DNA from: Acidobacteriota bacterium
GTDB taxonomy: Bacteria > Acidobacteriota > Terriglobia > Versatilivoradales > Versatilivoraceae
Direction of reading: 5' to 3'
Length of the DNA stretch: 52,961 nt
Assembly (NCBI GenBank): GCA_009841055.1
Contig: VXMN01000122.1
Location: 1 to 52,961 of the forward strand
Within the stretch, counting starts at the first letter, position 1. Each line of letters opens with the position of its first letter. Positions 18,735-33,095 of this stretch are shown one piece after another. The translations under genes were made by a program, and so were the position numbers. The notes beneath the pieces were generated by a model, which ran no database searches, was not told the origin of the DNA, and worked only from the letters and a program-made list of their open reading frames with translations.

Positions 18735-18770
18735 CATGCGGTCGGCATGCGGTCGGCATGCGGTCGGCAT
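18735..18770. repeat. 11-bp tandem repeat upstream of the PspA operon promoter
   Basis: CATGCGGTCGG is repeated exactly three times (18735-18745, 18746-18756, 18757-18767) and a fourth copy begins (CAT). The array ends where the -35 element begins. An 11-bp period places the copies on nearly the same DNA face, as expected for a cooperative activator or repressor site. Confidence 0.75.
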
Positions 18771-18798
18771 TGATAATCCCCGGCATTGCTGCCATAAT
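18770..18798 (+). promoter_or_regulatory. Sigma70-like promoter of the PspA operon
   Basis: TTGATA (18770-18775) and CATAAT (18793-18798) are separated by exactly 17 nt; each matches the consensus at five of six positions. A start near 18805 would give a leader of about 40 nt. I looked for a sigma54 -24/-12 pair, which controls pspA in enterobacteria, and did not find one. Confidence 0.65.
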
Positions 18799-18846
18799 GG
18801 CGGCGTCGCGCGTGTGTTCTGGAAGTTTGCTCAGGGAGGTTTTTCG

Positions 18847-19245
18847 ATGGCGGGTCCGATGATCGATGAGGTGGAGGAAATCGTTGCCAACGCGGGTTAC
18901 GAGGTGGTCAAGGTCGAAGGCGATACCCTTCAGATCAGGGACATCGAGAGCGGGATCTCGGTCTCCTGCGTGCTGGAGCAGGACATTCTCTACAACACGG
19001 TCTCCTGCCAGGTGGTGGATTCGGGCTCGGTCACCCCGGCCCTGATGGTCCGCATGCTGGATGCCCAGAACGGCATTTCCACCTCCGCCTTCCAACTCTA
19101 CGATCTGGAAAACGGCAAGACGGCCATCACCCTGAACAACTTTGCCAAGCTGCAGAGCCTGGGCGAGGACGATCGGGACGACATTCTCTCCTGCATCAGC
19201 TTCCTGGTCGGGGATGTCTGCGAGGCCAGGGATCTGCTGGAATAG
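18847..19245 (+). CDS. Small YjfI/YbjN-like protein, first gene of the PspA operon
   Basis: The 132-residue acidic protein has no signal or membrane segment. Its plan, an N-terminal helix (MIDEVEEIVANAGYEVVKV), a run of strands (DTLQIRDIESGISVSCVLEQ, YNTVSCQVVDSG), a helix around PALMVRMLDAQN, more strands and a C-terminal helix, resembles the YbjN/secretion-chaperone-like fold. Position before pspA matches YjfI (DUF2170) in the E. coli yjfIJKLMC operon; that assignment rests mainly on synteny and length. ATG at 18847 has GGGAGG eight nt upstream. A longer in-frame extension would run through the promoter and tandem repeat and is rejected. A regulatory or chaperone role for PspA is possible. 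Confidence 0.8.
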   Translation: MAGPMIDEVEEIVANAGYEVVKVEGDTLQIRDIESGISVSCVLEQDILYNTVSCQVVDSGSVTPALMVRMLDAQNGISTSAFQLYDLENGKTAITLNNFAKLQSLGEDDRDDILSCISFLVGDVCEARDLLE

Positions 19246-19292
19246 CCTCAGAGCGCCCGACCCGCATTTTTTACCATAAGGAGTCGACAACC

Positions 19293-19979
19293 ATGGGGAT
19301 CCTGGACAGATTGTTTCGAGTCAGCAAGGGCAAGCTCAACGAAGGTGTTGACAAACTGGAGGATGCCACCTTCGAGTCGACCCTGCGTCAGAGCATTCGG
19401 GACATGGAGGACCAGCTTCACCGGGTGATCCGGTCCGCCGCCGATGCCATGAGCAACTGCAATCGCCTCGAAGCCGAGTACGGCAAGCACCTGGAGCAGT
19501 CCAAGGACTGGGAAGGCAAGGCCAGGAAGGCCCTGCTGGCGGGCAATGAGGATCTGGCCAGGAAGGCCCTTGCCAAGAAGACCGAATGCGACCAGCAGGC
19601 GGCATCCCTCAAGGATGCGGTGGATCAAGGCGTGGCCGCCCGCGACAAGCTCAAGAACCAGGTGGAACAGCTCCGCCGCAAGATCGACGAGTCCAAGCGC
19701 AAGGCCAGCACGCTCATCGCCCGCAAGAACGCCGCCAACGCCCAGAAGAAGATGGCCCAGGTGATGAGCGGGCTGGGAACCGACGACAACGCCTTTGCTT
19801 CCATTTCGCGATTCGAGGAGGCCGTCAACCGGGAAGAAGCCACCGCCAAGGCCTATGAGAACATGTCGGTCGGCGCCGACCCCGATCTGGAGAAAGAGTT
19901 CGCCGCCCTGGACGTCTCCACCACCGACAGCGAGCTGGACAGGCTGAAGGCCGAGGTGGAGTCCTCCAAAAGGCCTTAG
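19293..19979 (+). CDS. pspA: PspA/IM30 family membrane-stress protein
   Basis: The 228-residue protein is of normal PspA/IM30 length. The N terminus (MGILDRLFRVSKGKLNEGVDKLED) is the amphipathic membrane-binding helix, and the rest is a long coiled coil rich in Glu, Lys, Arg and Ala typical of this ESCRT-III-like family. Such proteins assemble on the inner face of the cytoplasmic membrane and limit proton leakage. No PspB, PspC or PspF gene is nearby, so regulation differs from the classical phage-shock system. AAGGAG precedes the ATG by nine nt. It lies second in a seven-gene operon ending with an aminopropyltransferase, as YjfJ does in the yjf operon. Confidence 0.94.
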   Translation: MGILDRLFRVSKGKLNEGVDKLEDATFESTLRQSIRDMEDQLHRVIRSAADAMSNCNRLEAEYGKHLEQSKDWEGKARKALLAGNEDLARKALAKKTECDQQAASLKDAVDQGVAARDKLKNQVEQLRRKIDESKRKASTLIARKNAANAQKKMAQVMSGLGTDDNAFASISRFEEAVNREEATAKAYENMSVGADPDLEKEFAALDVSTTDSELDRLKAEVESSKRP

Positions 19980-20003
19980 CCCGGGGGCAGACGGCACCTC
20001 GCC

Positions 20004-20621
20004 ATGACCGAAGTCCTCATTCTGATCCTGCTGGGCTTGGCGGGCTATTTCCTCTACAAGGCGCTTCGCAAAAAAAAGCCCAAGGCGGAGGCCTTGCCTC
20101 AGAGAACCGACCTCGCCAACCTCACTATCAAGGATGCAATCCGGGGAGACAACATCATCCTTTCCGGAGCCGGCCAATCCTACGAGGACCTTTCCTTTAC
20201 CGTGGACCGACTGAACCGCTACGAGTCCGACGGCGAGCAGTGGTTCGAGTTGAGCGGCCTCGGTGCCGGCAAGAGGGTTTTCCTGGAGTGGTCCGAGGAC
20301 GACGAACTGGAAATTACCCTTCAGAGGCAGGGTGGGCTGCACCTGGAAGCCATCGGCGTCACCGAGGAAGACCTGGCCCAAATGGACGAGGAGAGGTCGC
20401 GGTCGCGTTTCATCGAGTATCAGGGCAAGCGATGGAACTACCGGGAAAGCGCAGAGGCCGGTTACTTCAAGGACGACGGGCCCGAGGGCGAGGGCTTTTA
20501 TTACTGGAAGTTCGATTGCGACGAGCTTCAGCTCTTCATCGAGAAGTATGAGGGCGACCCCTTCGAGGTCGGCATCTCGGAAAAGATCAGCCCCGGCCGG
20601 GTCAGGATATTCAGAGCCTAG
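20004..20621 (+). CDS. DUF4178 domain protein with N-terminal membrane anchor
   Basis: The 205-residue protein begins with one hydrophobic segment (VLILILLGLAGYFLYKAL) followed by a KKKPK stop-transfer run, so the bulk is cytoplasmic. The remainder matches DUF4178 in pattern: a GDNIILSG beta start, WFELSG and VFLEWSEDDELEITL strands, then SRFIEYQGKRWNYRESAEAGYF and FYYWKFDCDELQLFIE. DUF4178 genes are known to accompany PspA, DUF350 and spermidine-synthase-like genes in many bacteria, which is the case here. The gene starts 24 nt after pspA. Its biochemical role is unknown. Confidence 0.85.
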   Translation: MTEVLILILLGLAGYFLYKALRKKKPKAEALPQRTDLANLTIKDAIRGDNIILSGAGQSYEDLSFTVDRLNRYESDGEQWFELSGLGAGKRVFLEWSEDDELEITLQRQGGLHLEAIGVTEEDLAQMDEERSRSRFIEYQGKRWNYRESAEAGYFKDDGPEGEGFYYWKFDCDELQLFIEKYEGDPFEVGISEKISPGRVRIFRA

Positions 20622-20634
20622 GCCGTCATTCTCC

Positions 20635-20652
20635 CCGGGCGGAATCGCCCGG
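20635..20652. repeat. Intra-operon hairpin CCGGGCG-GAAT-CGCCCGG
   Basis: A perfect 7-bp stem with a 4-nt loop lies in the 75-nt gap between the DUF4178 and DUF2617 genes. Without a T-run it is unlikely to be a full terminator. It could protect the upstream mRNA segment or attenuate transcription, giving more PspA than downstream enzyme. Confidence 0.45.
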
Positions 20653-20696
20653 CACGGGCTCTGACCGACAGTCTTCACCACAGGATCCAAACAACG

Positions 20697-21293
20697 GTGC
20701 AGCTACCATCTTCCCTGTCATGCACCCGGCGACCGGCTGAGAATTACGGTCCGGCGCTCGCCTTGCCCTACCAGGACACCTCGCACCGGAACCTGCGACT
20801 CTGCCTGTTTCGGGAAGCCATTGACCTATCCCGCTTCAAGGTCGTATCCTCGGCCTTCCTGCGCCACCTCGACATGGACTTCGAGGTTCACGTGATCGGG
20901 GCCAGCCACCTGGTACGCTGCGGGCAATGGTCGGAACTGCTATCCTGCGCCGGCGGAAGCGAGACGGCGCCTGTCCTGGCCCTGGGACCGGACTTCTCCG
21001 GCCGGCAACCCTTCCGGTACCTGGACGGGAACCTCCGCTACGAGTTCGAGATCGGGCTCCTGTCGACCGGAGGGGTCTCGGGGCTGGATCGGCTGGATCG
21101 AGCGCGGGACCGGATCAGCCGCTATCCGGTTCACCTGTCCTCGGAGTTTGCGACCGAAAGTGCCGGCCCCCGCCCGCCGGTGACCTGCCTGGGGGTGCGC
21201 CCACTGGAGCGGGGGCTGGAAGTGAGTTCCCTGCACTACTATCCCCAGGAGTCCACGGGGGTCTTGAGCTTGTCGGTGACGACGGTTCGGTAG
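20697..21293 (+). CDS. DUF2617 family protein
   Basis: The 198-residue soluble protein matches DUF2617. The family hallmark V-x-GASH is present (HVIGASHLVRC), preceded by ALPYQDTSHRNLRLCLFREAI and followed by FRYLDGNLRYEFEIG and the closing HYYPQESTGVLSLSVTTVR strands. In actinobacteria and other groups DUF2617 genes sit beside DUF350, DUF4178 and polyamine aminopropyltransferase genes, as here. The function is unknown. The start is GTG at 20697; there is no ATG before the conserved region and the ribosome binding site is weak. A TTG at codon 24 is an alternative. Confidence 0.82.
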   Translation: MQLPSSLSCTRRPAENYGPALALPYQDTSHRNLRLCLFREAIDLSRFKVVSSAFLRHLDMDFEVHVIGASHLVRCGQWSELLSCAGGSETAPVLALGPDFSGRQPFRYLDGNLRYEFEIGLLSTGGVSGLDRLDRARDRISRYPVHLSSEFATESAGPRPPVTCLGVRPLERGLEVSSLHYYPQESTGVLSLSVTTVR

Positions 21294-21303
21294 GAGGAGA
21301 ACC

Positions 21304-22743
21304 ATGGACAGACAATCCCTGCTCTACGCCTCGGCCGGAATAGCCGTGCTGGCTCTCCTGGTGGTGGTTCTCACCTACGCGGGTGGGGGATTGAACCCGC
21401 AGACCCAAGCCGGCCTGGCCACGGCCGAGCAGCTACTGAAAAACTCGCGGGCCAATCATGGCGAGCTGAGCCGTGAGGCACGCTCCCTGATCGACGCCAT
21501 GACCGGGCTGCCCCAGTCCCGGCGAGAGCAGTGGCTGACCCGGCTGGACCAATCGGAAAAGGACCTGGAATCCGCCTCCAAGGAGCTGGAAGAAGCCGCG
21601 GAACTGGCTGCCCGGGACGACGATGAACTGCGGGTGGAGATCGAACGCCGCGTCGACCAGTCCAGGCAGAAGCGGACCCGGGCGTTGCAGGCCGCCAGCG
21701 AGACACTGGATCTGGCCAGGACCGTCAGCGAGGTGGACAAGAATCGCGGCCGCTACGTCGGCGAGGCCCGTGCCGGCTACCGGCAAATCGCCGCCTACCG
21801 CCCCGCCAGCGTCGCCGGCGCTCGGAGAGCCATGATCGACTGGCCCGAGAAAAAGGCCGACTTGAGCCAAGCCATCCAACAGATGGCTGACGTCAAGGCC
21901 CGCTCGGCTTCCATGTGGAAGGAGCACTCCCGGGCCATCGGCGCGTCCGACGCCGATGCCCTGCTGATCCTGGAGACCCACCAGAGCCTGCAGGCCGACG
22001 GGCTGCAACTGGCGCGCCTGGACAGCCGGCTCGGCCAGAAGGTGGATCAGCTCTACCTCTCCTGGGACAGGATCCTGGTGGACATGGACATCAGGGAGGG
22101 TGAATCCCTGACCCTGCACCACAAGTACAAGACGGTGACGGTTCAAATCCAGGATCCCCGGGAGAAACAGGGCGCCCACTCGGAAAGCGAGGCCTGGGTT
22201 CAGGTTTCCAAGGCCACCTTCGACGCCCTGGAAGACAAGCTGGGGATGTCGGTGGCCCGCAAGCCGGCAGGAAAATACGAGGAAGAAGCCGAATCGCTGG
22301 CCCAGCCGGCCGGCTATTCCTACGTTGCGCCCCCGGGGCAGAGCAACCAGTACGGGCAATGGCGCCGGGACGCCCACGGCGGTTCCTTCTGGGTCTTTTA
22401 CGGCCAGTACATGTTCATGCGCTCCATGTTCTGGGGACCCGCCTACCAGCCCATCCTGCCCCGAGACTACAACGACTATCGCCGATCCTACACCTCGGGC
22501 AGAACCTACTACGGCCGCACCGCCGCCGGCCGGCCTCGCTACGGCACCAACAGCCGGACAACGGCTTCCACCTATCGGTCCTCCCGCTACGTGAGAAGCG
22601 GGGGCTATCGAAACTCCTATTACAAGCGAAGCGGCGGCAACCTCAGGGGGTATCGCTCGACTCGATATCGCACCGCCGGCGCCGGCGGACGGGGCGGCTC
22701 CTATGGTAGTCGCGGCCGCCGTTCCTTTTTTGGAGGCAAGTGA
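21304..22743 (+). CDS. Membrane-anchored coiled-coil protein with Arg/Tyr/Gly-rich tail
   Basis: The 479-residue protein has one N-terminal membrane helix (LLYASAGIAVLALLVVVLTY, about 5-24), so the rest is probably outside the cytoplasmic membrane. Residues 35-145 and 185-260 are charged helical segments with coiled-coil character. Residues 265-330 form a small beta/alpha region. An aromatic motif follows (YGQWRRDAHGGSFWVFYGQY, 350-369). The last 90 residues (388-479) are low complexity, dominated by R, Y, S, G and T, strongly basic and probably disordered. AGGAGG precedes the ATG. I know no function; position in the operon equals that of the less conserved extracytoplasmic gene in related DUF350 clusters. 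The basic tail could bind anionic lipid or cell wall. Confidence 0.85.
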   Translation: MDRQSLLYASAGIAVLALLVVVLTYAGGGLNPQTQAGLATAEQLLKNSRANHGELSREARSLIDAMTGLPQSRREQWLTRLDQSEKDLESASKELEEAAELAARDDDELRVEIERRVDQSRQKRTRALQAASETLDLARTVSEVDKNRGRYVGEARAGYRQIAAYRPASVAGARRAMIDWPEKKADLSQAIQQMADVKARSASMWKEHSRAIGASDADALLILETHQSLQADGLQLARLDSRLGQKVDQLYLSWDRILVDMDIREGESLTLHHKYKTVTVQIQDPREKQGAHSESEAWVQVSKATFDALEDKLGMSVARKPAGKYEEEAESLAQPAGYSYVAPPGQSNQYGQWRRDAHGGSFWVFYGQYMFMRSMFWGPAYQPILPRDYNDYRRSYTSGRTYYGRTAAGRPRYGTNSRTTASTYRSSRYVRSGGYRNSYYKRSGGNLRGYRSTRYRTAGAGGRGGSYGSRGRRSFFGGK

Positions 22744-22745
22744 CC

Positions 22746-23630
22746 ATGGACTGGATCGAACTGGGAGTCAGCCTGTGCTACGTGGTTCTCGGCGCGGTCA
22801 TTCTGATAATCGCCAAGTTCGTCAATGACCTGCTCACGCCCTACGGCCTCGACGAGGAGCTGACGGTCCGGGACAACCCCGCCATCGGGCTGAGTCTGAC
22901 CGGTTACTACGCCGGGGTCATGATTATCTTCCTGGGCGCCTCCACCGGAACCGAGGGCGAGCTCCTGGATCTCAACCGGCTTCTACCCGAACTGGGGGTG
23001 GTGGCCGCCTGGGCCCTGGGCGGAATCGTCCTCCTCAATCTGGGCAGAAAGCTCCTGGACAGGCTGGTGCTGCGCCACTTCAGCATCTACAAGGAACTGG
23101 TCCGGGACCGGAACGTGGGGACCGGAGCCGTGCTCTGCGGGGCCTATATCGCCACCGCTCTGATCCTGGCGGGTGCGATCTACGGTGAGATACCCCCCGA
23201 ATCCGCGTTTGCCGGAGTCTGGACCGGCCCCGTCACCGCCCTGTGCTACTTCGTTGCAGGTCAAGTGACTCTGGTTCTATTCTCTTTCTTCTATCAGTGG
23301 ATCACGCGCTACGACATTCACGCCGAAATCGAGAAGGACAACCCGGCGGCGGGAGTGGCATTCGGCGGCAACATGGTCGCCTTGGGCATCCTGCTGCTCA
23401 AGGCAAGCGCCCACCACTTCGAATCCTTCAGCGACAGTCTCACCGAATATGCCAGCCTGGCGGCCGTCGGCTTCGTGGCCCTCTTCCTGTTGCGTGAACT
23501 GGTCGACCATGCGCTGCTGCCGCGGACCCGCATCGCCCACGAGATCGCGGTCGACAGAAACCTGGGAGTCGCCTGGATCGAGTCGGTAGTGGCCATCGGC
23601 ATGGCCTCCATCCTCTTCTTCATGCTGTAA
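22746..23630 (+). CDS. Integral membrane protein with two DUF350 domains
   Basis: The 294-residue protein has about eight membrane segments arranged as two DUF350 units, about 1-145 and 155-294. The family signature, a charged residue, Asp-Asn and a small-residue helix, appears four times: RDNPAIGLSLTGYYAG, RDRNVGTGAVLCGAYIA, KDNPAAGVAFGGNMVA and VDRNLGVAWIESVVA. YjfL of E. coli is the single-domain form; this one is a fused duplicate. ATG at 22746 has GGAGG nine nt upstream and lies two nt after the preceding stop, so translation is coupled. A GTG at 22740 overlaps the previous gene and is less likely. The internal fourfold repeat suggests a channel or carrier, unproven. Confidence 0.93.
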   Translation: MDWIELGVSLCYVVLGAVILIIAKFVNDLLTPYGLDEELTVRDNPAIGLSLTGYYAGVMIIFLGASTGTEGELLDLNRLLPELGVVAAWALGGIVLLNLGRKLLDRLVLRHFSIYKELVRDRNVGTGAVLCGAYIATALILAGAIYGEIPPESAFAGVWTGPVTALCYFVAGQVTLVLFSFFYQWITRYDIHAEIEKDNPAAGVAFGGNMVALGILLLKASAHHFESFSDSLTEYASLAAVGFVALFLLRELVDHALLPRTRIAHEIAVDRNLGVAWIESVVAIGMASILFFML

Positions 23631-23685
23631 CCCGCATCGCCACCGGCGCCCCGGTGAGAAACGCAGGGTAAACCCGGATCTCCTC

Positions 23686-25335
23686 ATGAACCGATTCCGA
23701 CACGCCCGGAAGGTGCTGGCGGCGTCCATGTTCGTCATGGGGGCTTGCGGGATCGCCTACGAGTACACTCTGGGGGCGCTGGGCAACAACCTGATGGGCT
23801 CCTCCCATGAGCAGATCTTCGTGGTCATCGGGCTGATGATGTTCGCCATGGGCCTGGGAGCCACCCTGCAGAAGAACATCAGCGGCAACCTGGTGGACAA
23901 GTTCCTGCTGGTCGAGATCCTGCTGGGGCTGACGGGAGGGATCAGCGCCCTGGTCATCTACCTGGCCTACGTCTATTCGACCAGCTACATGCTGCTGCTG
24001 TGGGGATTCTCGCTTGGGATCGGCGTCCTCATCGGTCTTGAAATCCCCCTGCTGATCCGAATCAACCGCGAGTATTCGGCCAGTCTCAAGACCAACCTGT
24101 CCGAGATCCTGAGCATGGACTACGTGGGTGCGCTGGTGGGAGCCCTGCTGTTCACCTTCGTCCTCTTCGCCAACCTGTCCGTCAACCAGATTGCCGTGGT
24201 CCTGGGATGCGCCAACCTCCTGCTGGCCCTGCTGGGGCTGGCCTACTTCCGCCCCCTGCTTCGCCACTTCAGGAAGCTTCTGCTGCTCTCCTGCGCCGGT
24301 GCGGCGCTGCTGGGCTGCCTGCTGGCCCTGTCGGAGAACTGGCGGGTGACACTGGAGCAGCGGACCTACAGCGATCCCATCATCTACAGCCACACCTCCA
24401 GGTACCAGCACATCGTCATGACCCGCCGGAACGACCGGCTCAGCCTCTTCATCAACGGCCACCTGCAGTTCAATTCCCTCGACGAGCGGATCTACCACGA
24501 GCTGCTGGTCCACGTTCCCTTTTCGGTGGCTCCCAGCCGTGCCAGGGTGCTGATTCTCGGGGGAGGCGACGGCCTGGCGCTCAGGGAGGTGCTGAAATAC
24601 GAGGCGGTGCGGCGGGTGGACCTGGTGGACATCGATCCTGCCATGACCGACCTGGCGGCTACCCATCCCGACCTGGTCCGACTCAATCGGGGAGCCCTGT
24701 CGGACGGACGGGTCACCCTGCGTCCGTCACTGGGCGTCTCAGAGGGAGAGATCCGGACCGTCTCCCGTCCCAGCAAGCTGGCCCCCTCCCTGCTCAACGA
24801 CACCGTCTATCCCCAGGCCAAGGTCCGGGTGATCAACCTGGACGCCGACCTGTTCGTTCGCAGCCTGCAGGGGCCCTACGACCTGGTGATCATCGACTTT
24901 CCCGATCCGAAATCGGTGGGCACGGCCAAGCTCTACTCCCTGGATTTCTATCGCAGGCTGGCCCGTCAACTGGGCCCCGGCGGCCTGGTGGCGGTGCAAT
25001 CCACCTCGCCCTACCACTCCCGGGAGATGTTCCTGTGCATCGGGAAAACGCTGCGGGCCGCCGGCTTCCGGGCCCTGCCCTACCGCCAGAACGTCCCCAG
25101 CTTCGGGGAGTGGGGGTGGCACCTGGCCTGGCTGCACGAAACCGGCGAGTCGAACATGAAGGAAAATCTGGAGGGGCTGGCATCCATCGAGGTCCCGACC
25201 GGCTATCTCACCACGGCACTGGTGTCCAACGCCACCGCCTTCGGCAAGCGCTGGCTCGATGACGCCCATATCGAAATCAACACCAAGTTTCGTCCCACCA
25301 TTCTCCAATACCACCGGCAGTCCTGGAGAAACTGA
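23686..25335 (+). CDS. speE: Membrane-embedded polyamine aminopropyltransferase (spermidine synthase fold)
   Basis: The 549-residue protein fuses an N-terminal domain of about seven membrane helices (1-215) to a spermidine-synthase domain. LILGGGDG (289-296) binds the decarboxylated-SAM cosubstrate, VDIDP (314-318) holds the ribose-binding acid, and DFPDP (404-408) carries the catalytic Asp. Compared with soluble SpeE there is an extra stretch near 345-380. Membrane-bound SpeE-like proteins of this form occur with DUF350, DUF2617 and DUF4178 genes. The reaction is expected to be transfer of an aminopropyl group, but the acceptor may not be putrescine. It is the last operon gene, 55 nt after DUF350. 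No SAM decarboxylase gene is in the window. Confidence 0.92.
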   Translation: MNRFRHARKVLAASMFVMGACGIAYEYTLGALGNNLMGSSHEQIFVVIGLMMFAMGLGATLQKNISGNLVDKFLLVEILLGLTGGISALVIYLAYVYSTSYMLLLWGFSLGIGVLIGLEIPLLIRINREYSASLKTNLSEILSMDYVGALVGALLFTFVLFANLSVNQIAVVLGCANLLLALLGLAYFRPLLRHFRKLLLLSCAGAALLGCLLALSENWRVTLEQRTYSDPIIYSHTSRYQHIVMTRRNDRLSLFINGHLQFNSLDERIYHELLVHVPFSVAPSRARVLILGGGDGLALREVLKYEAVRRVDLVDIDPAMTDLAATHPDLVRLNRGALSDGRVTLRPSLGVSEGEIRTVSRPSKLAPSLLNDTVYPQAKVRVINLDADLFVRSLQGPYDLVIIDFPDPKSVGTAKLYSLDFYRRLARQLGPGGLVAVQSTSPYHSREMFLCIGKTLRAAGFRALPYRQNVPSFGEWGWHLAWLHETGESNMKENLEGLASIEVPTGYLTTALVSNATAFGKRWLDDAHIEINTKFRPTILQYHRQSWRN

Positions 25336-27178: not shown

Positions 27179-28513
27179 CTAAACCAACTCGTGGAGCGGC
27201 TGCCCCATGACGTCATCGATGGAGTTGGCGATGTAGAGGGGACGGCCTCCGGGGTTGACGTACTCCTTGGTCCAATCGATGCCCATGGCCTTGTAGATGG
27301 TGGCGAAGAGGTCGCCCATGGTGACCCTGCGTTCGGCCACCTGAGCCCCCTGCTCGTCGCTGGCGCCCACCACTCGTCCGCCCTGAATACCTCCACCCCC
27401 CAGAATCAACGACCAGCAGTCCGGGTAGTGATCCCGCCCGTTGTTGGCGTTCAGGTGGGGGGTGCGACCGAACTCGCCCATGGCCAGCACCACGGTGGAG
27501 TCCAGCAGTCCGCGCTGCTGCAGGTCCTCCAGCAACACCGAAAGGGTCTGGTCCAGGGTGGGGGCCAGCTTGTCCCGCAGCCTCTGGTCGTTGTCCTTGT
27601 GGGTGTCCCAGGCCCCGTGGGCGTATCCTGAGGTGGTCACAAAGCGGCAGCCGGCTTCCACCAGGCGGCGAGCCAGCAGCACGCTTTGACCGACCCGGGT
27701 GCGTCCGTAGGCATCCTTGGTCCGGTCCGACTCCTGGGACAGATCGAAGGCCTGCTTGACCTTGGGCGAAAGCAGCATGGTCAGGGCCTGGTTGGTGAAG
27801 CGGTCCATCCTGCCGAATTCGGCGTGCTTCTCCTTCTGGCGGAACCCCCGGTCCACCGCCTGCAGAAACGACCGGCGGTCGGCGATATCGGCGGCCGTCA
27901 GGGTATCGGGCAGGGACAGGTCCGGAATCTGAAAGGACTCATGGTTGGGATCGGGCAGAATAATCGGATCGTATTCCGAACCCAGAAAGGCCGAGGTGTA
28001 GGCATCCATGTAGGAGAAAAAGTCGGTCTCCTGGTGCTCCGGGACCATGATGTAGGGAGGAAGGTTGTTCCTCGGCCCCAGCTCCCTGGAGATGATCGAA
28101 CCCAGGCTGGGAAACTTCAGGGCCGGATTGGGGCGGTGGCCGGTCAGCGCGTAGTGGGTGCCTTGAGGATGGTTGTTCTCCTCGGTGTGCATGGAGCGGA
28201 CAATAGCCAGCTTGTCCATGTGGCCGGCGATTCGGGGAAAGATCTCCGAGATCCGAATGCCGTCGGCCCGGGTGGGAATGGCATTGAACTGGCTGTGGGG
28301 CTTGGGGTCCCAGGTGTCGATCTGGGAGGGACCTCCCTCCAGCCAGAGCAGTATGCAGGCCTGGGCTTTTTGTTTCGAACGGGCGGCGGCCGGAGTGGCC
28401 GCTTCCAGGGCCAGGTACTGCCTCAGGTTCAGGCCCAGCAGGCTAAGAGCACCGACTCTGAGGAATTCCCGGCGTGGCCGGCAACACCCGAGCTGATCGA
28501 TCGGCAGGTCCAT
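27179..28513 (-). CDS. DUF1501 protein, Tat-exported
   Basis: The 444-residue protein belongs to DUF1501, a sulfatase/phosphatase-fold family abundant in Planctomycetota and Acidobacteriota. The N terminus carries a twin-arginine signal (RREFLRVGALSLLGL). Characteristic segments follow: ILLWLEGGPSQIDTWDPKP, RSMHTEENNHPQGTHYALTG, TSGYAHGAWDTHKDN and MGEFGRTPHLNANNGRDHYP. ATG at 28513 lies 11 nt after the stop of the DUF1549/DUF1553 gene, and the two families are known to occur as a gene pair; they are probably co-translated. The function is unknown. A role in periplasmic polysaccharide or sulfate-ester processing has been suggested for such pairs on context alone. Confidence 0.93.
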   Translation of the reverse strand: MDLPIDQLGCCRPRREFLRVGALSLLGLNLRQYLALEAATPAAARSKQKAQACILLWLEGGPSQIDTWDPKPHSQFNAIPTRADGIRISEIFPRIAGHMDKLAIVRSMHTEENNHPQGTHYALTGHRPNPALKFPSLGSIISRELGPRNNLPPYIMVPEHQETDFFSYMDAYTSAFLGSEYDPIILPDPNHESFQIPDLSLPDTLTAADIADRRSFLQAVDRGFRQKEKHAEFGRMDRFTNQALTMLLSPKVKQAFDLSQESDRTKDAYGRTRVGQSVLLARRLVEAGCRFVTTSGYAHGAWDTHKDNDQRLRDKLAPTLDQTLSVLLEDLQQRGLLDSTVVLAMGEFGRTPHLNANNGRDHYPDCWSLILGGGGIQGGRVVGASDEQGAQVAERRVTMGDLFATIYKAMGIDWTKEYVNPGGRPLYIANSIDDVMGQPLHELV

Positions 28514-28524
28514 AGGAATGTCCC

Positions 28525-31107
28525 TCAGTGATTATAGGTAAACTGGCGGGAGGCCAGCAACCCCCAGGCCAGGTTTTCCACTCCCTTCCGGCGAGATGGA
28601 GCCATCTCGATGAGGTCTTGCAGCCGGGTTTCCTCGTCAGCCGTCGGAAAGCGCGAAAGCGCAGCCAGATAGAGTTCCCGAACGATCTCCCTGTCGGAGG
28701 CGCCGGCCGACAGCAGCCGACTCACACGGCCTTCCTTGGCCGCGATCTTGGTGGTGTAGGTGGAGCCGACCAGCAGGTGCAGGGCCTGCCTGAGGGTGGA
28801 ACGGTAGTCGCGCCAGGGCATGCTGTCCCGGCTGACGGGCCGCCCATAAACTTCCAGGAACTGGGAGGGAGTAACTTCCGGGACCAGCTCGATGGCCCGG
28901 GTCCCCTTGGGCTCAGTGCCTCCACCCACGTACTCGTGAACGGCAAAGGCCTCCTCGATGCCGGTCACCGATGAAATGGCGTCCAGCAGGATCTCGGCCT
29001 CCAATCGGCGAGGCAGCGCCCGGGAGTGGTTGACCTCATCCTCCCGGTTGGTCGAATTGAGGTCTCCTGAAAGCTGATAGGTTCCGGACCGGGCGATAGC
29101 GCGCATCAGGTGCCTGAGATCATAGCCGCTGCGCCGAAAATCACGGGCCAGGGCCTGCAGCAACTCGGGGTGGCTGGCGGGGTTGCCGGGTCTGAAATCG
29201 TCCACCGGCTCGACCAGGCCCTTCCCGAAGAAGTTGGCCCACACCCGGTTGACGATGGCCTGGCTGAAGTAGGGGTTCGCCGGCGAGGTCATCCAGTCCG
29301 CCAGCTCCGCGCGGGGGTTGATGCCGGTGGAAGGGGGCAGTGAGCCGTCCAGGAAACTGGGGGCCACTTCCCGCCGGCGCCGGGGGTGAATCACCTTGGG
29401 CCCTTCCGGCTGTTCCTCGTTCCCGGAAACGTCGTCCATGAAGACCGAGAGGTCGCGGATTCGGGTCAGCTGTCCGTAGAAGGCGGTAATTCCCCAGAAC
29501 TGATCCTGGGTCCAGGTCTCGTAGGGATGGTCGTGGCACTGAGCGCAGTCCAGGCGTATCCCCAGGAAGACCCGCACGTCCTCTCCCATCTTCTCGTGGG
29601 GACGCATGACTTCCCCGCTGATGGACTTGATGAAATGCCGGGTAGGCCCGCCGTTGCCCTGGCCCGCCACCCGTTCCCGGGCCATCTGGTCGTACGGTTT
29701 GTTGCGGGCCAGGCTTTCCCGGATCCAGCTCTTGTAGACGTAGGCATTGCGATAGACCACCCGGAAGAAGTCGGCAAAGCGAAAGGTCCAGTAGTCCACG
29801 AATTCCGGCGAGTTCAGCAGCCGCTCGATCAGATGCTCCCGCTTGAGAGAATCCCGGTCGGCCAGGAATTCGCGCACGCGCTCGGGGGGTGGCAGGGTCC
29901 CCGTGAGGTCCAGACAGACCCGCCGCAGGAAGGCGGAGTCGCTTGAGAGGCCCGCCGGAACAATGTGCAGTTCCCGCAACCGATCGAAAACCAGGTCATC
30001 GATGAAATTGCGTCCGGCCACCTCCGGATAGTTGTCCAGCGGTTGTCGAATCACCCCGCAGCGGACCTGAACCAGCTTCCCGGCCGCCCGTATCGTCACT
30101 CTGGCCTGTCCCGGCTTGAGGGCCCGCACCACCCCCGACGGGGTGACGTCAATGACAGCCGGGTCGCTGCTCTCGTAAAGCACCTCGGGACTCAGGTCTT
30201 CAGCGCGGCCGTCTTCAAAGACAGCGGTCACCAGCAGTCGCCGCCCAGCTCCGGGCTCCATGATCGCTTCCCGCGGAAAAACCTCCAGGCGTTGGATCCG
30301 GGACTCCGACGGGCCGGCCCCGTAGGGAGCCCCCTGGCGTATCCACTCCAACAGCCTCCGGTAGTCGGCCGAGCCCCGCTCGAAGCGCTGTCCTCCCCCA
30401 TGGGGCAACTCCAGCGCGGGCTTCAGCAGCAATCGGCTCTGTCGCGGCTCTTCCAGGCTGACTCGAGGGTCGAAGGGCTCGGCGGCTTTGGGGGACAGCA
30501 CCTGGTAGACTCCGCCCTTGACGGTCCAGCGGTAGTCCTCCCGGGGATTGATACCGTGCAGGGAAAGCTTGAAACCGCCCCGGCCCTTGACCCCGCCGTG
30601 GCACTCGCTGCCGTTGCAACCGTTACGGGTAAAGACCCCGACCACATCCCGAGCGAACCCGAAGGGTCTGGCCCTTCCGGTTCCTTCGATGCGAACCGTC
30701 GCCTCCAGCCTCTGTCCGGCAACCTCGGCCCGCAACGTGACCTCCCCATCCCGGCGAGCCGTCAGCAGCCCCTCAGGCTCGACTTGAGCCAATCGGTCAT
30801 CCGACAGGCTGAATCGTGCTTCCGGCGTAAGGTCGATTTCGAGCCCCCGGGAATCGGTGGCCACCACCAGGAAGGATTGGAACGCTCCTTCCCCCAGCAA
30901 TCGTACCCGAGAAGGGACCAGGCGAAAGCCCCACAGGCCGTTGCGGGCCACCAATCGGTCGGAGCCTGCCGAGCCGTTGGGGCTCGCTGCCGGTTCCGCG
31001 GGCGGGGTTTGGCGATCCCCATCCGCGCCCAGGTGCCCGGGCGCCAGGATCGGCAGGAGGCTCAACACCAATACCCGGACAGGTCTCTTCCAATCGGACA
31101 TCCCCAT
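28525..31107 (-). CDS. Secreted DUF1549/DUF1553 protein with Ig-like and cytochrome-like domains
   Basis: The 860-residue protein has a signal peptide (SDWKRPVRVLVLSLLPILAPGHLGA). Two bacterial Ig-like (Big2) segments occur: SRVRLLGEGAFQSFLVVATDSRG onward near 65, and VFPREAIMEPGAGRRLLVTAV with VTPSGVVRALKPGQARVTIRAAG near 280-350. Between them is the cytochrome-like CNGSECHG with GGFKLSLHGINP and HGGGQRF; the C-x4-CH spacing is usual in this family. DUF1549 follows (FIDDLVFDRLRELHI, RRVCLDLTGTLPP, CAQCHDHPYETWTQDQFW), then DUF1553 (NPYFSQAIVNRVWANFFGKGLVEPVDDFR). ATG at 31107 has GGAGG about six nt upstream. The gene pairs with DUF1501 downstream and likely acts in the periplasm. Confidence 0.92.
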   Translation of the reverse strand: MGMSDWKRPVRVLVLSLLPILAPGHLGADGDRQTPPAEPAASPNGSAGSDRLVARNGLWGFRLVPSRVRLLGEGAFQSFLVVATDSRGLEIDLTPEARFSLSDDRLAQVEPEGLLTARRDGEVTLRAEVAGQRLEATVRIEGTGRARPFGFARDVVGVFTRNGCNGSECHGGVKGRGGFKLSLHGINPREDYRWTVKGGVYQVLSPKAAEPFDPRVSLEEPRQSRLLLKPALELPHGGGQRFERGSADYRRLLEWIRQGAPYGAGPSESRIQRLEVFPREAIMEPGAGRRLLVTAVFEDGRAEDLSPEVLYESSDPAVIDVTPSGVVRALKPGQARVTIRAAGKLVQVRCGVIRQPLDNYPEVAGRNFIDDLVFDRLRELHIVPAGLSSDSAFLRRVCLDLTGTLPPPERVREFLADRDSLKREHLIERLLNSPEFVDYWTFRFADFFRVVYRNAYVYKSWIRESLARNKPYDQMARERVAGQGNGGPTRHFIKSISGEVMRPHEKMGEDVRVFLGIRLDCAQCHDHPYETWTQDQFWGITAFYGQLTRIRDLSVFMDDVSGNEEQPEGPKVIHPRRRREVAPSFLDGSLPPSTGINPRAELADWMTSPANPYFSQAIVNRVWANFFGKGLVEPVDDFRPGNPASHPELLQALARDFRRSGYDLRHLMRAIARSGTYQLSGDLNSTNREDEVNHSRALPRRLEAEILLDAISSVTGIEEAFAVHEYVGGGTEPKGTRAIELVPEVTPSQFLEVYGRPVSRDSMPWRDYRSTLRQALHLLVGSTYTTKIAAKEGRVSRLLSAGASDREIVRELYLAALSRFPTADEETRLQDLIEMAPSRRKGVENLAWGLLASRQFTYNH

Positions 31108-31154
31108 GAAACACCTCCGGTCTGCGGCGATTTCAGCCGCGGACCGCCTCTCGC

Positions 31155-33095
31155 TCACGAGCCGGACGACCGCTCCGGCGAACCGATCACCATGAGCGGA
31201 ATCTCTCCCACCGGCAGCCGGGCACCCAACCGGTTGTCGACCGCCGGCCGCGCCCACACCCTGACCCGGGCCGGCAGGTCCGTCAACGGTGCCTGCTCGT
31301 CGGCCCGCAACAGGATGACGGCCTTTTCGCTGAACCCCAGGAAGCTTTTGCGGCTTTCGGTGGTGGGCCCGATAGGGCTGGGGGGCTCCACTTCCGTGCC
31401 GGTCAAGGGCTCCACCCCCGGCGGCAGACCCTCCAGGCTCAGGGCCACCTGGCCCGAATAACCCTCTTCCAGGCCGGTGGTTACTTTCAGCGTTCTGACC
31501 TGGCCCCGCCTGAGATTGATACGATCCCCTTCGAGCTCGAGGTCCCCCACGTGGGGAATGCCGGGGCGAACCATCACCCGGTAGGCATGGTCCGATCGGC
31601 CCTGCTGGGAGGTCAGGTCGCCAACCTGCAGGAGGTAGTCGCCGGCGACGCCGAATTCGGCCACCATCTTGGCCTCCAGAGACTCGAAAAAGGCAAGGGA
31701 CCCGATGGCGCAGGTTCCGCGGTCAGGAAGATGGAGTTTGAGCAGCTCCACCAGAAAAATGGGGTCCTGACGGGTCAGCGCGATCTTGCGGTGCTTGTTG
31801 TCGAACAACGGGTGCCCGGCGGAATCCAACACCTTGAGGCTGGGACTGAAGGCCGGAGGCGAGACCCGCGGGGTCTCCACCTCAAAGACCAGCGTCTGCC
31901 CGGCCGCAAGTTGGAATCGAAAGAAATCCACGTCTCCCGGAGCTTCGATTCTCCCGCTGATCAGAGCGGGTAGAGAAACAGTCGGGGCCTGCTCGCGGCT
32001 TCCGTTGGGCTCTTTTTCTTCAAAGACCACCGGAGCAGGATTGGCGCCTCTCGAAGATGGATCGGGCGAGCCGGCTGTGCCCGTGGGTTCCCTCGATTGC
32101 TTCTCGGATTCCGGGCCTGCCTTGGACCGGGACCCGTTAGCGGCGGGCTTGACCGTGCGGGCCCAGAGCCGGCGCAGCCGGAGCGGAGTCAACTCCCTGA
32201 CGTATTGGCGCTCGCTCCACTTGGCCGGTTTCCCGGGACCGGGCCAACCCCCGTATGTCGATCCGTCTCCCGCCGGCACGATGCGAAGCTGATAGACGAA
32301 TTCGGGTTCGGCTTTGCCATAGACTGATCCGACCCCTATCCGATAGCGCCCGCCACGGTCGAAGCGATGGCGCCAGTGCCTGGCCCGCGAGGGCCTGTAG
32401 CTTCCCTTGTGGCTGAACTCCAGCTCCGCCGGTCTGTCGCCGCGCAGCCAGCTTCCCTCGTCCCTGTGCAGCCTGAGTACCTGCCTGAAGGTTTCGGCCG
32501 GGCTGAACAACTGGAAAGCCAGGTCTTCCCCGGCCGTCACCTCCAGCGCGTAGCTGTCCACTTCCCCGTCGCGGGAGAGCCTGCCGTTGAGGATGACCGG
32601 GGGACGGACGATGCGGGGCCTGGAATCAACCCCGCCGGCATCCTCCGACTCCTCCATGACCGGATCGGAGCTGACCAGAAAGCTCAACGGATTGGAAATC
32701 CCCCGCCGGGAAACCAGGTAGAGGGAGTGGACCCCGCTCGGGACCCCGGGACCGATCTCCATCTCGAGGTTGACCCGCTGATTGGGCGCCTTCTTCTTGT
32801 CTCCATATCCGCTCTCCTCGGACCCCTTCTCCTGTTCCGAAACCGGGCGGACTTCCAGGATGGCGCCTTTGAGGCCCGGCTCAGGAGACCAGACCGCGTG
32901 CACCTCCTGCAGCAACCGGCCTTCCACCTCGGCCTTAAGGCGGGTGTCCGGCCGGCCTCCCAGCGGGTAGATCCAGTGGGCCTCCGGCTCTGTGGGTTCC
33001 GGAGCCGGCATTTCCTGGGCCACGGCATGGAAAACCAGCAGCAGGGCCAGCAGGGCCGGCCCGAAGCGGTTCGCCAGGGTGGCGGCCCCGCTCAT
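31155..33095 (-). CDS. Secreted prepeptidase (PPC) domain protein
   Basis: The 646-residue protein begins with a signal peptide (NRFGPALLALLLVFHAVAQ). It contains at least two bacterial prepeptidase C-terminal domains with the VDSYALEVTAGEDLAFQLFSP and VDFFRFQLAAGQTLVFEVETP patterns, plus a disordered Gly/Ser/Pro linker around residues 330-360. The C terminus has an Ig-like strand set (RTLKVTTGLEEGYSGQVALS). Such proteins accompany DUF1549/DUF1553/DUF1501 genes in Planctomycetota-like genomes, as here (47 nt upstream of that gene). No catalytic site is visible. ATG at 33095 has GGGAAA four nt upstream; a GTG at 33125 is an alternative start. Confidence 0.85.
   Translation of the reverse strand: MSGAATLANRFGPALLALLLVFHAVAQEMPAPEPTEPEAHWIYPLGGRPDTRLKAEVEGRLLQEVHAVWSPEPGLKGAILEVRPVSEQEKGSEESGYGDKKKAPNQRVNLEMEIGPGVPSGVHSLYLVSRRGISNPLSFLVSSDPVMEESEDAGGVDSRPRIVRPPVILNGRLSRDGEVDSYALEVTAGEDLAFQLFSPAETFRQVLRLHRDEGSWLRGDRPAELEFSHKGSYRPSRARHWRHRFDRGGRYRIGVGSVYGKAEPEFVYQLRIVPAGDGSTYGGWPGPGKPAKWSERQYVRELTPLRLRRLWARTVKPAANGSRSKAGPESEKQSREPTGTAGSPDPSSRGANPAPVVFEEKEPNGSREQAPTVSLPALISGRIEAPGDVDFFRFQLAAGQTLVFEVETPRVSPPAFSPSLKVLDSAGHPLFDNKHRKIALTRQDPIFLVELLKLHLPDRGTCAIGSLAFFESLEAKMVAEFGVAGDYLLQVGDLTSQQGRSDHAYRVMVRPGIPHVGDLELEGDRINLRRGQVRTLKVTTGLEEGYSGQVALSLEGLPPGVEPLTGTEVEPPSPIGPTTESRKSFLGFSEKAVILLRADEQAPLTDLPARVRVWARPAVDNRLGARLPVGEIPLMVIGSPERSSGS

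Follow-up and report, generated by a model that had tools for sequence, protein, structure and literature searches.

Relation to described PspA and aminopropyltransferase operons

PspA-containing operons assigned to group 2 by Ravi et al. (2024) combine a CesT/Tir-PspA pair with DUF4178, DUF350, and a membrane aminopropyltransferase (example AAN56744-AAN56747; PMC11237479), and the same paper credits Li et al. (2019) with the suggestion that substrates other than polyamines are aminopropylated. DUF2617 receives one sentence there, as a predicted beta-sandwich enzyme of a variant operon (CCP45394.1) that is said to lack the CesT/Tir-PspA pair. The operon analyzed here lies at positions 18847-25335 of a 52,961-nucleotide stretch of an Acidobacteriota genome (contig VXMN01000122.1; the window, meaning the whole stretch analyzed) and consists of seven genes (g1 to g7), all on the plus strand and separated by short gaps. 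It shares with group 2, whose operons have 6-7 genes, a protein in the CesT/Tir slot, PspA, DUF4178, a protein in the lipoprotein slot, a double DUF350 protein, and a fusion of seven transmembrane helices (7TM) to a spermidine synthase domain; PspA, DUF4178, double DUF350, and the 7TM-spermidine synthase fusion stand together in one operon, as in that group, and the operon is a real one of an already described class. It differs in that group 2 was described without DUF2617, whereas here, and in this respect unlike the CCP45394.1 variant, DUF2617 and the CesT/Tir-slot-PspA pair share one operon, in a genome without SpeD.

Enzymes in which a membrane domain is fused to a spermidine synthase domain, with a DUF350 neighbor and a linked SpeD, are said to have been reported by Li and co-workers in 2019 (Biochem J 476:2579), and reportedly do not replace spermidine synthase in Escherichia coli; their genomes have SpeD, whereas the present genome has no SpeD and combines DUF2617 with a transferase carrying an insert of 35-39 residues. 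The E. coli yjfIJKLMC operon resembles the locus in its CesT/Tir-like YjfI, PspA-like YjfJ, and DUF350 protein YjfL, but it encodes an ATP-grasp ligase and no aminopropyltransferase and constitutes a separate group 3 (PMC11237479). A first-pass annotation of the window had noted the absence of this ATP-grasp enzyme and had seen the aminopropyltransferase in its place; profile searches indeed recovered no ATP-grasp glutathionylspermidine-synthase-like gene among the seven, but the aminopropyltransferase is no stand-in and defines a separate known group.

The outline given by that annotation, seven same-strand genes with short gaps, was borne out with corrected starts for g1 and g6, and Pfam and NCBIfam agree with its family assignments (g2 PspA, g3 DUF4178, g4 DUF2617, g6 double DUF350, and g7 NF002956). 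It had staked its interpretation on these families and on the genes staying together in relatives, and the order is in fact retained in the genus: the transferase and DUF2617 are present in six further genomes, the full gene order was read in three loci (L053-L055), and a fourth (L056) was read from pspA onward. Two Planctomycetota loci keep the gene order without DUF2617. The idea of a polyamine-type group added at the membrane also holds, but both the idea and the operon type had already been published (PMC11237479). Two points had been overlooked: SpeD is absent from the genome, and the operon has DUF2617 where related operons have SpeD. The role of DUF2617 as a candidate donor-making enzyme is what is new here, the operon class being known and the aminopropylation idea largely so. 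We propose that the operon may encode a module, linked to PspA, that carries out aminopropylation at the membrane with a donor of its own making, and in which g4 would be a cryptic pyruvoyl-dependent S-adenosylmethionine (AdoMet) decarboxylase feeding g7; on the basis of an exclusion pattern, the replacement of SpeD in the cluster, a fold hint, and the placement of candidate residues, we put the probability of this reading at about 0.5.

DUF2617 and the missing aminopropyl donor

The last gene, g7 (23686-25335, 549 residues), belongs to the membrane aminopropyltransferases (NF002956, 4.6e-175, 583 bits; cut-off 472). Its AlphaFold (AF2) model (predicted local distance difference test score, pLDDT, 85.5) has seven long helices ahead of a catalytic domain that matches spermidine synthases in Foldseek (TMt 0.73-0.81), and the active-site residues (YQ, YHE, GGGDG, DA, D-x-x-D-P, and Q) are invariant or at least 95% conserved in 73 non-redundant homologs. 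Family membership and an intact spermidine synthase active site make it very likely that g7 moves an aminopropyl group from decarboxylated AdoMet, an activity established at the level of the family. The transmembrane helices (23692-24363) carry the invariant acidic residues E26, E119, and D145 and the near-invariant E77. Lys plus Arg average 2.6, 3.2, and 3.0 in loops 2, 4, and 6 and 0.2, 0.4, and 0.95 in loops 1, 3, and 5, with the even loops exceeding the odd ones in 73 of 73 homologs; by the positive-inside rule, this places the N-terminus inside and the catalytic domain outside, and the active site is thus predicted, as the somewhat likelier arrangement, on the outer face of the membrane. 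The disordered insert of 35-39 residues (24712-24825), which precedes the DAD motif of the adenine loop, marks the g7 subfamily; the same insert is found in related g7 homologs and was gained once on the tree.

Aminopropyltransferases use decarboxylated AdoMet, the product of SpeD. Profile searches of the window's genome (G000) found no SpeD and no class 2 AdoMet decarboxylase, and g7 is its sole spermidine-synthase-like match. The survey sample of 151 genomes of the class holds two g7 subfamilies, which differ sharply in this respect: of the 21 genomes carrying the other subfamily, 20 encode SpeD, typically at a distance of 3-4 kb from the transferase gene, and none encodes DUF2617 (0/21), whereas all nine genomes with the window's subfamily, the window's own included, have DUF2617 (9/9) and none has SpeD (0/9). 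DUF2617 is likewise missing from the remaining genomes of the sample (0/142), and the mutual exclusion of SpeD and DUF2617 gives a Fisher probability of 7e-7, not corrected for kinship. One of the nine SpeD-less genomes is a single contig, so the absence is not merely due to gaps.

The pattern extends to other phyla. On the tree, DUF2617 without SpeD turns up at three separate places. Transferases of the same subfamily occur with SpeD in the operon in gammaproteobacteria (L078 and L080) and Verrucomicrobiota (L066 and L067), and on an Alteromonas plasmid, an annotated speD adjoins the transferase in a cluster that also encodes DUF4178 and DUF350. The Verrucomicrobiales locus L065 belongs to the Verrucomicrobiota, and of 388 genomes surveyed in this phylum a single one (G163) yielded a DUF2617 match; it has the window-type g7 subfamily and no SpeD, and its cluster has a K+ channel, DUF350, and PspA in common with the SpeD-bearing L066. 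A K+ channel with an RCK domain adjoins DUF350, PspA, and the transferase in L066, L125, and L061. Additionally, DUF2617 but not SpeD was found in two controls of the profile search, C. glutamicum and H. volcanii, of which C. glutamicum also scores above the cut-off for the membrane transferase. No DUF2617 was found on plasmids, and matches on viral contigs were only to soluble SpeE-like proteins. G1012 gave a weak, sub-threshold DUF2617 match that was set aside as false, the protein resembling ribosomal protein L25.

The DUF2617 gene, g4 (20697-21293; GTG start uncertain), was assigned by PF10936 (1.9e-13, 51.3 bits; gathering cut-off 22.3), and an AF2 model built from eight sequences reached a pLDDT of 87.5. 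In a Foldseek comparison with the PDB, human AdoMet decarboxylase (1msv_B; probability 0.97, TMq 0.46, E 0.02) ranked top by both probability and template modeling (TM) score among the 50 matches listed, the rest having TM scores of at most 0.33, the value of another 1msv chain. Like the known AdoMet decarboxylases (class 1b SpeD and class 2), g4 has an H-x-x-P motif and is predicted to have a two-half beta fold, with the Ser-Cys pair in the first half and the Ser/Thr-His-Glu set in the second; it differs by the lack of significant sequence similarity. Neither PF02675 nor PF01536 matched DUF2617 significantly at the profile level, and a PDB profile search returned nothing significant. Such matches are hardly to be expected, because class 2, although it consists of two fused class 1b units, itself barely resembles class 1b in sequence (PMC10407285).

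Candidate catalytic residues are numbered from the open reading frame at window positions 20745-21290. For the human enzyme, we take S68, C82, S229, H243, and E247 as the established catalytic residues; in the PDB alignment its halves read ...LSE-S68-SMFVSKRRFILKT-C82... and ...GYS229MNG...YWTI-H243-ITPE247..., with alanine at S68 or H243 in two entries. The corresponding halves of g4 read ...VIGA-S54-HLVRCGQWSELLS-C68... and ...T147CLG...VSSL-H164-YYPQE169.... The proposed pyruvoyl precursor Ser54 (codon 20904-20906, plus strand, as for the other residues) would correspond to human Ser68 and the Ser of the SpeD ESH motif, with which hhalign pairs it, and Cys68 (20946-20948) to human Cys82 and the Cys of SpeD FTC, at a Ser-Cys spacing of 14 in both g4 and the human enzyme. 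Thr147 (21183-21185), in the first turn of the strand 146-154, would take the position of human Ser229, and the H-Y-Y-P-Q-E motif with His164 and Glu169 (21234-21251) that of human H243-x-T-P-E247 and SpeD H-T-W-P-E; hhalign of DUF2617 with SpeD pairs the stretches containing ESH...C and HTWPE. In the predicted structure, S54 is at the start of a strand that follows another strand, C68 lies at the end of the next one, T147 begins a strand, and H164 is near the end of the strand after it.

All five residues are invariant in operon-linked DUF2617 proteins (Ser and Cys in 14/14), and they occupy AdoMet decarboxylase catalytic positions in the matching halves, as judged by motif and predicted strands and not by superposition (permutation P 9e-5, with windows chosen after the pattern was seen). 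Single changes in the PF10936 profile cost 2.8-3.2 bits at S54, 7.3 at H55, 5.3 at E64, 6.0 at C68 (C68A), 3.4 at T147, and 7.4 at H164, and the DUF2617 family at large therefore keeps these residues. As a divergent decarboxylase with two SpeD-like halves, like the eukaryotic class 2 enzyme, g4 would self-cleave at Ser54, use Cys68, Thr147, His164, and Glu169, and yield decarboxylated AdoMet. A short contig of an Acidobacteriota metagenome-assembled genome (MAG) encodes a protein (L206:2439-3809) whose N-terminal part resembles the first half of DUF2617 (GASH...ELLSC) and precedes a class I methyltransferase domain.

Opposing observations and alternative explanations

The assignment of g4 as a decarboxylase is opposed by a series of observations. 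The transferase occurs in a few further genomes with neither SpeD nor DUF2617, namely G104, the rumen Bacteroidales MAGs L082-L084, and the MAGs G159, G170, and G173; some are perhaps incomplete, but G104 is 99% complete. Together with the lack of SpeD in the window's lineage, these would suit an explanation in which g7 does not use decarboxylated AdoMet here, but transfers another group (for instance 3-amino-3-carboxypropyl) taken from AdoMet itself, or has another function, g4 being an unrelated accessory protein. We regard this as unlikely: members of the same subfamily with the same catalytic residues have SpeD in their operons in gammaproteobacteria and Verrucomicrobiota, and the absence of SpeD coincides with DUF2617. 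The published account adds, after naming two variants, that "these operons" also encode AdoMet decarboxylase (PMC11237479), a remark that weakens the case if it concerns the DUF2617 variant. The predicted outside topology of g7 also conflicts with a cytoplasmic donor unless the donor is moved across; with the active site outside, decarboxylated AdoMet, a cation, would have to be carried across the membrane, perhaps via the acidic seven-helix domain or DUF350.

Other sources of the donor were considered. No candidate for a replacement of SpeD was visible in the operons of G104 (L130) and L082-L084, and a class 2 enzyme as a hidden source is absent from the window's lineage and was found only in G161. 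The class 2 AdoMet decarboxylase of this Acidobacteriota MAG (11.6 Mb; g7 of the window's subfamily) is of the eukaryotic type and stands in place of SpeD (L200:4620-5576, minus strand). A SpeD match in G175, a genome with DUF2617, was rejected as a counter-example; this paralog (L128:9081-9533, minus strand) lacks the Ser-His motif and is thus probably no AdoMet decarboxylase, and it may be neofunctionalized.

The structural evidence is open to a different explanation, namely that DUF2617 has a structural or regulatory part in the membrane complex and resembles AdoMet decarboxylase by chance, the SpeD/DUF2617 exclusion being a matter of lineage history. The DUF2617/no-SpeD state occurs at only three separate places on the tree, too few for an independent-pairs sign test to be significant. 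The Foldseek E value is only 0.02, with thioesterase/hotdog entries (TM about 0.2) leading by E value, and 1msv is the only AdoMet decarboxylase entry in the top 50 matches; no SpeD match appeared in the top 50 of the viral library. At the level of sequence, hhalign with SpeD was not significant (E 0.07-0.12), hhalign with a class 2 sequence gave no useful alignment, and the Glu that precedes the SpeD serine is absent in most DUF2617 proteins. Set against these points are the five invariant residues at catalytic positions in the correct halves, and the retention of Ser and Cys exactly where the operon has the transferase, which make a purely structural or regulatory role improbable.

The Planctomycetia served as a control for this last point. 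DUF2617 is present in 136 of 149 of their genomes, mostly without the transferase, and the proteins examined (L132-L161, L121, and L123) are unlinked to a membrane aminopropyltransferase and have Gly-His in place of Ser-His: in 32 of 32 sequences from 31 genomes, Ser is changed to Gly and Cys is lost, while His164 is kept. All 12 Planctomycetia genomes that do have the transferase have SpeD. Part of the family, without transferase, Ser, or Cys, therefore does something else, and a simple replacement of SpeD by DUF2617 is ruled out for the family as a whole and retained for the Ser/Cys type, in which the presence of Ser and Cys follows that of the transferase operon, as a role of these residues in supplying the donor would predict. 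That g4 has the AdoMet decarboxylase fold with another activity, such as ornithine or arginine decarboxylation, is in keeping with the commonness of neofunctionalized SpeD paralogs (PMC10407285) and with the planctomycete proteins that lack Ser, Cys, and a tie to the transferase, but it would leave g7 without a donor in SpeD-less genomes and is distinctly improbable.

Remaining genes, acceptor, and implications

The gene before pspA, g1 (18847-19245, 132 residues), occupies the slot of a CesT/Tir-like chaperone; it matches no Pfam family, CesT/Tir included, in profile searches, whereas proteins in the same slot of L063 (31.6 bits; cut-off 27) and L066 match CesT_Tir_1. Its start is most likely at 18847, with AGGGAGG upstream, and not at 18735. 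PspA itself is encoded by g2 (19293-19979, 228 residues; PF04012, PspA_IM30, 6.9e-44), and g3 (20004-20621) encodes an N-terminal transmembrane helix and DUF4178 (PF13785, 7.2e-8); PspA, the CesT/Tir-slot protein, and DUF4178 would, going by the published class, link the module to membrane damage. Two DUF350 domains of the 8-transmembrane-helix class are found in g6 (22740-23630; PF03994, 2.8e-53, two stretches), which starts at 22740 (GTG, overlapping g5) or 22746 (ATG). A promoter-like site at 18770-18798 (TTGATA-17-CATAAT with extended TG, plus strand) agrees with the consensus at 10 of 12 positions; the region holds two sites of this kind, where chance alone would give 1.1. The cluster is bounded upstream by a Fic protein gene on the other strand and downstream by an iron alcohol dehydrogenase gene; a DUF1501 and PSCyt2/PSD1 (DUF1549/DUF1553) gene pair lies nearby (27179-31257, minus strand).

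The acceptor would rather be a membrane or surface molecule than putrescine, which we consider moderately probable. The product of g5 (21304-22743, 479 residues), predicted to lie outside, has a signal anchor, a helical region, and an Arg/Tyr/Gly-rich C-terminal tail; no family was found in Pfam/NCBIfam profile searches, about 30 homologous open reading frames occur across related loci, and its position matches the published lipoprotein slot (Ctha_1186). The tail (22300-22743) is of low complexity and a possible surface target of the modification.

More broadly, it is possible, though tentative, that Ser/Cys-type DUF2617 is a third, so far unrecognized pyruvoyl AdoMet decarboxylase form that takes the place of SpeD in Acidobacteriota and Verrucomicrobiota, and probably also in Actinomycetota (mycobacteria among them), and that feeds a membrane aminopropyltransferase with an extracytoplasmic active site. 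The DUF2617 example CCP45394.1 is, on our own unconfirmed reading, presumably a Mycobacterium tuberculosis protein encoded near speE. Like the window's genome, M. tuberculosis has a spermidine synthase without any AdoMet decarboxylase gene found; this was called the most glaring gap of its methionine regeneration pathway in 2004, when AdoMet decarboxylase activity measured in M. bovis extracts was cited with the gene unassigned (PMC524486). DUF2617 could also be the missing M. tuberculosis enzyme, and a candidate family with predicted residues makes this gap testable. If DUF2617 is such a decarboxylase, prokaryotes would have two AdoMet decarboxylases of two-half build, this one and class 2, which would bear on how the eukaryotic enzyme arose (PMC10407285), and the donor would have been found for a widespread membrane-stress module; if the outward-facing prediction for g7 is right, decarboxylated AdoMet or its product would cross the membrane.

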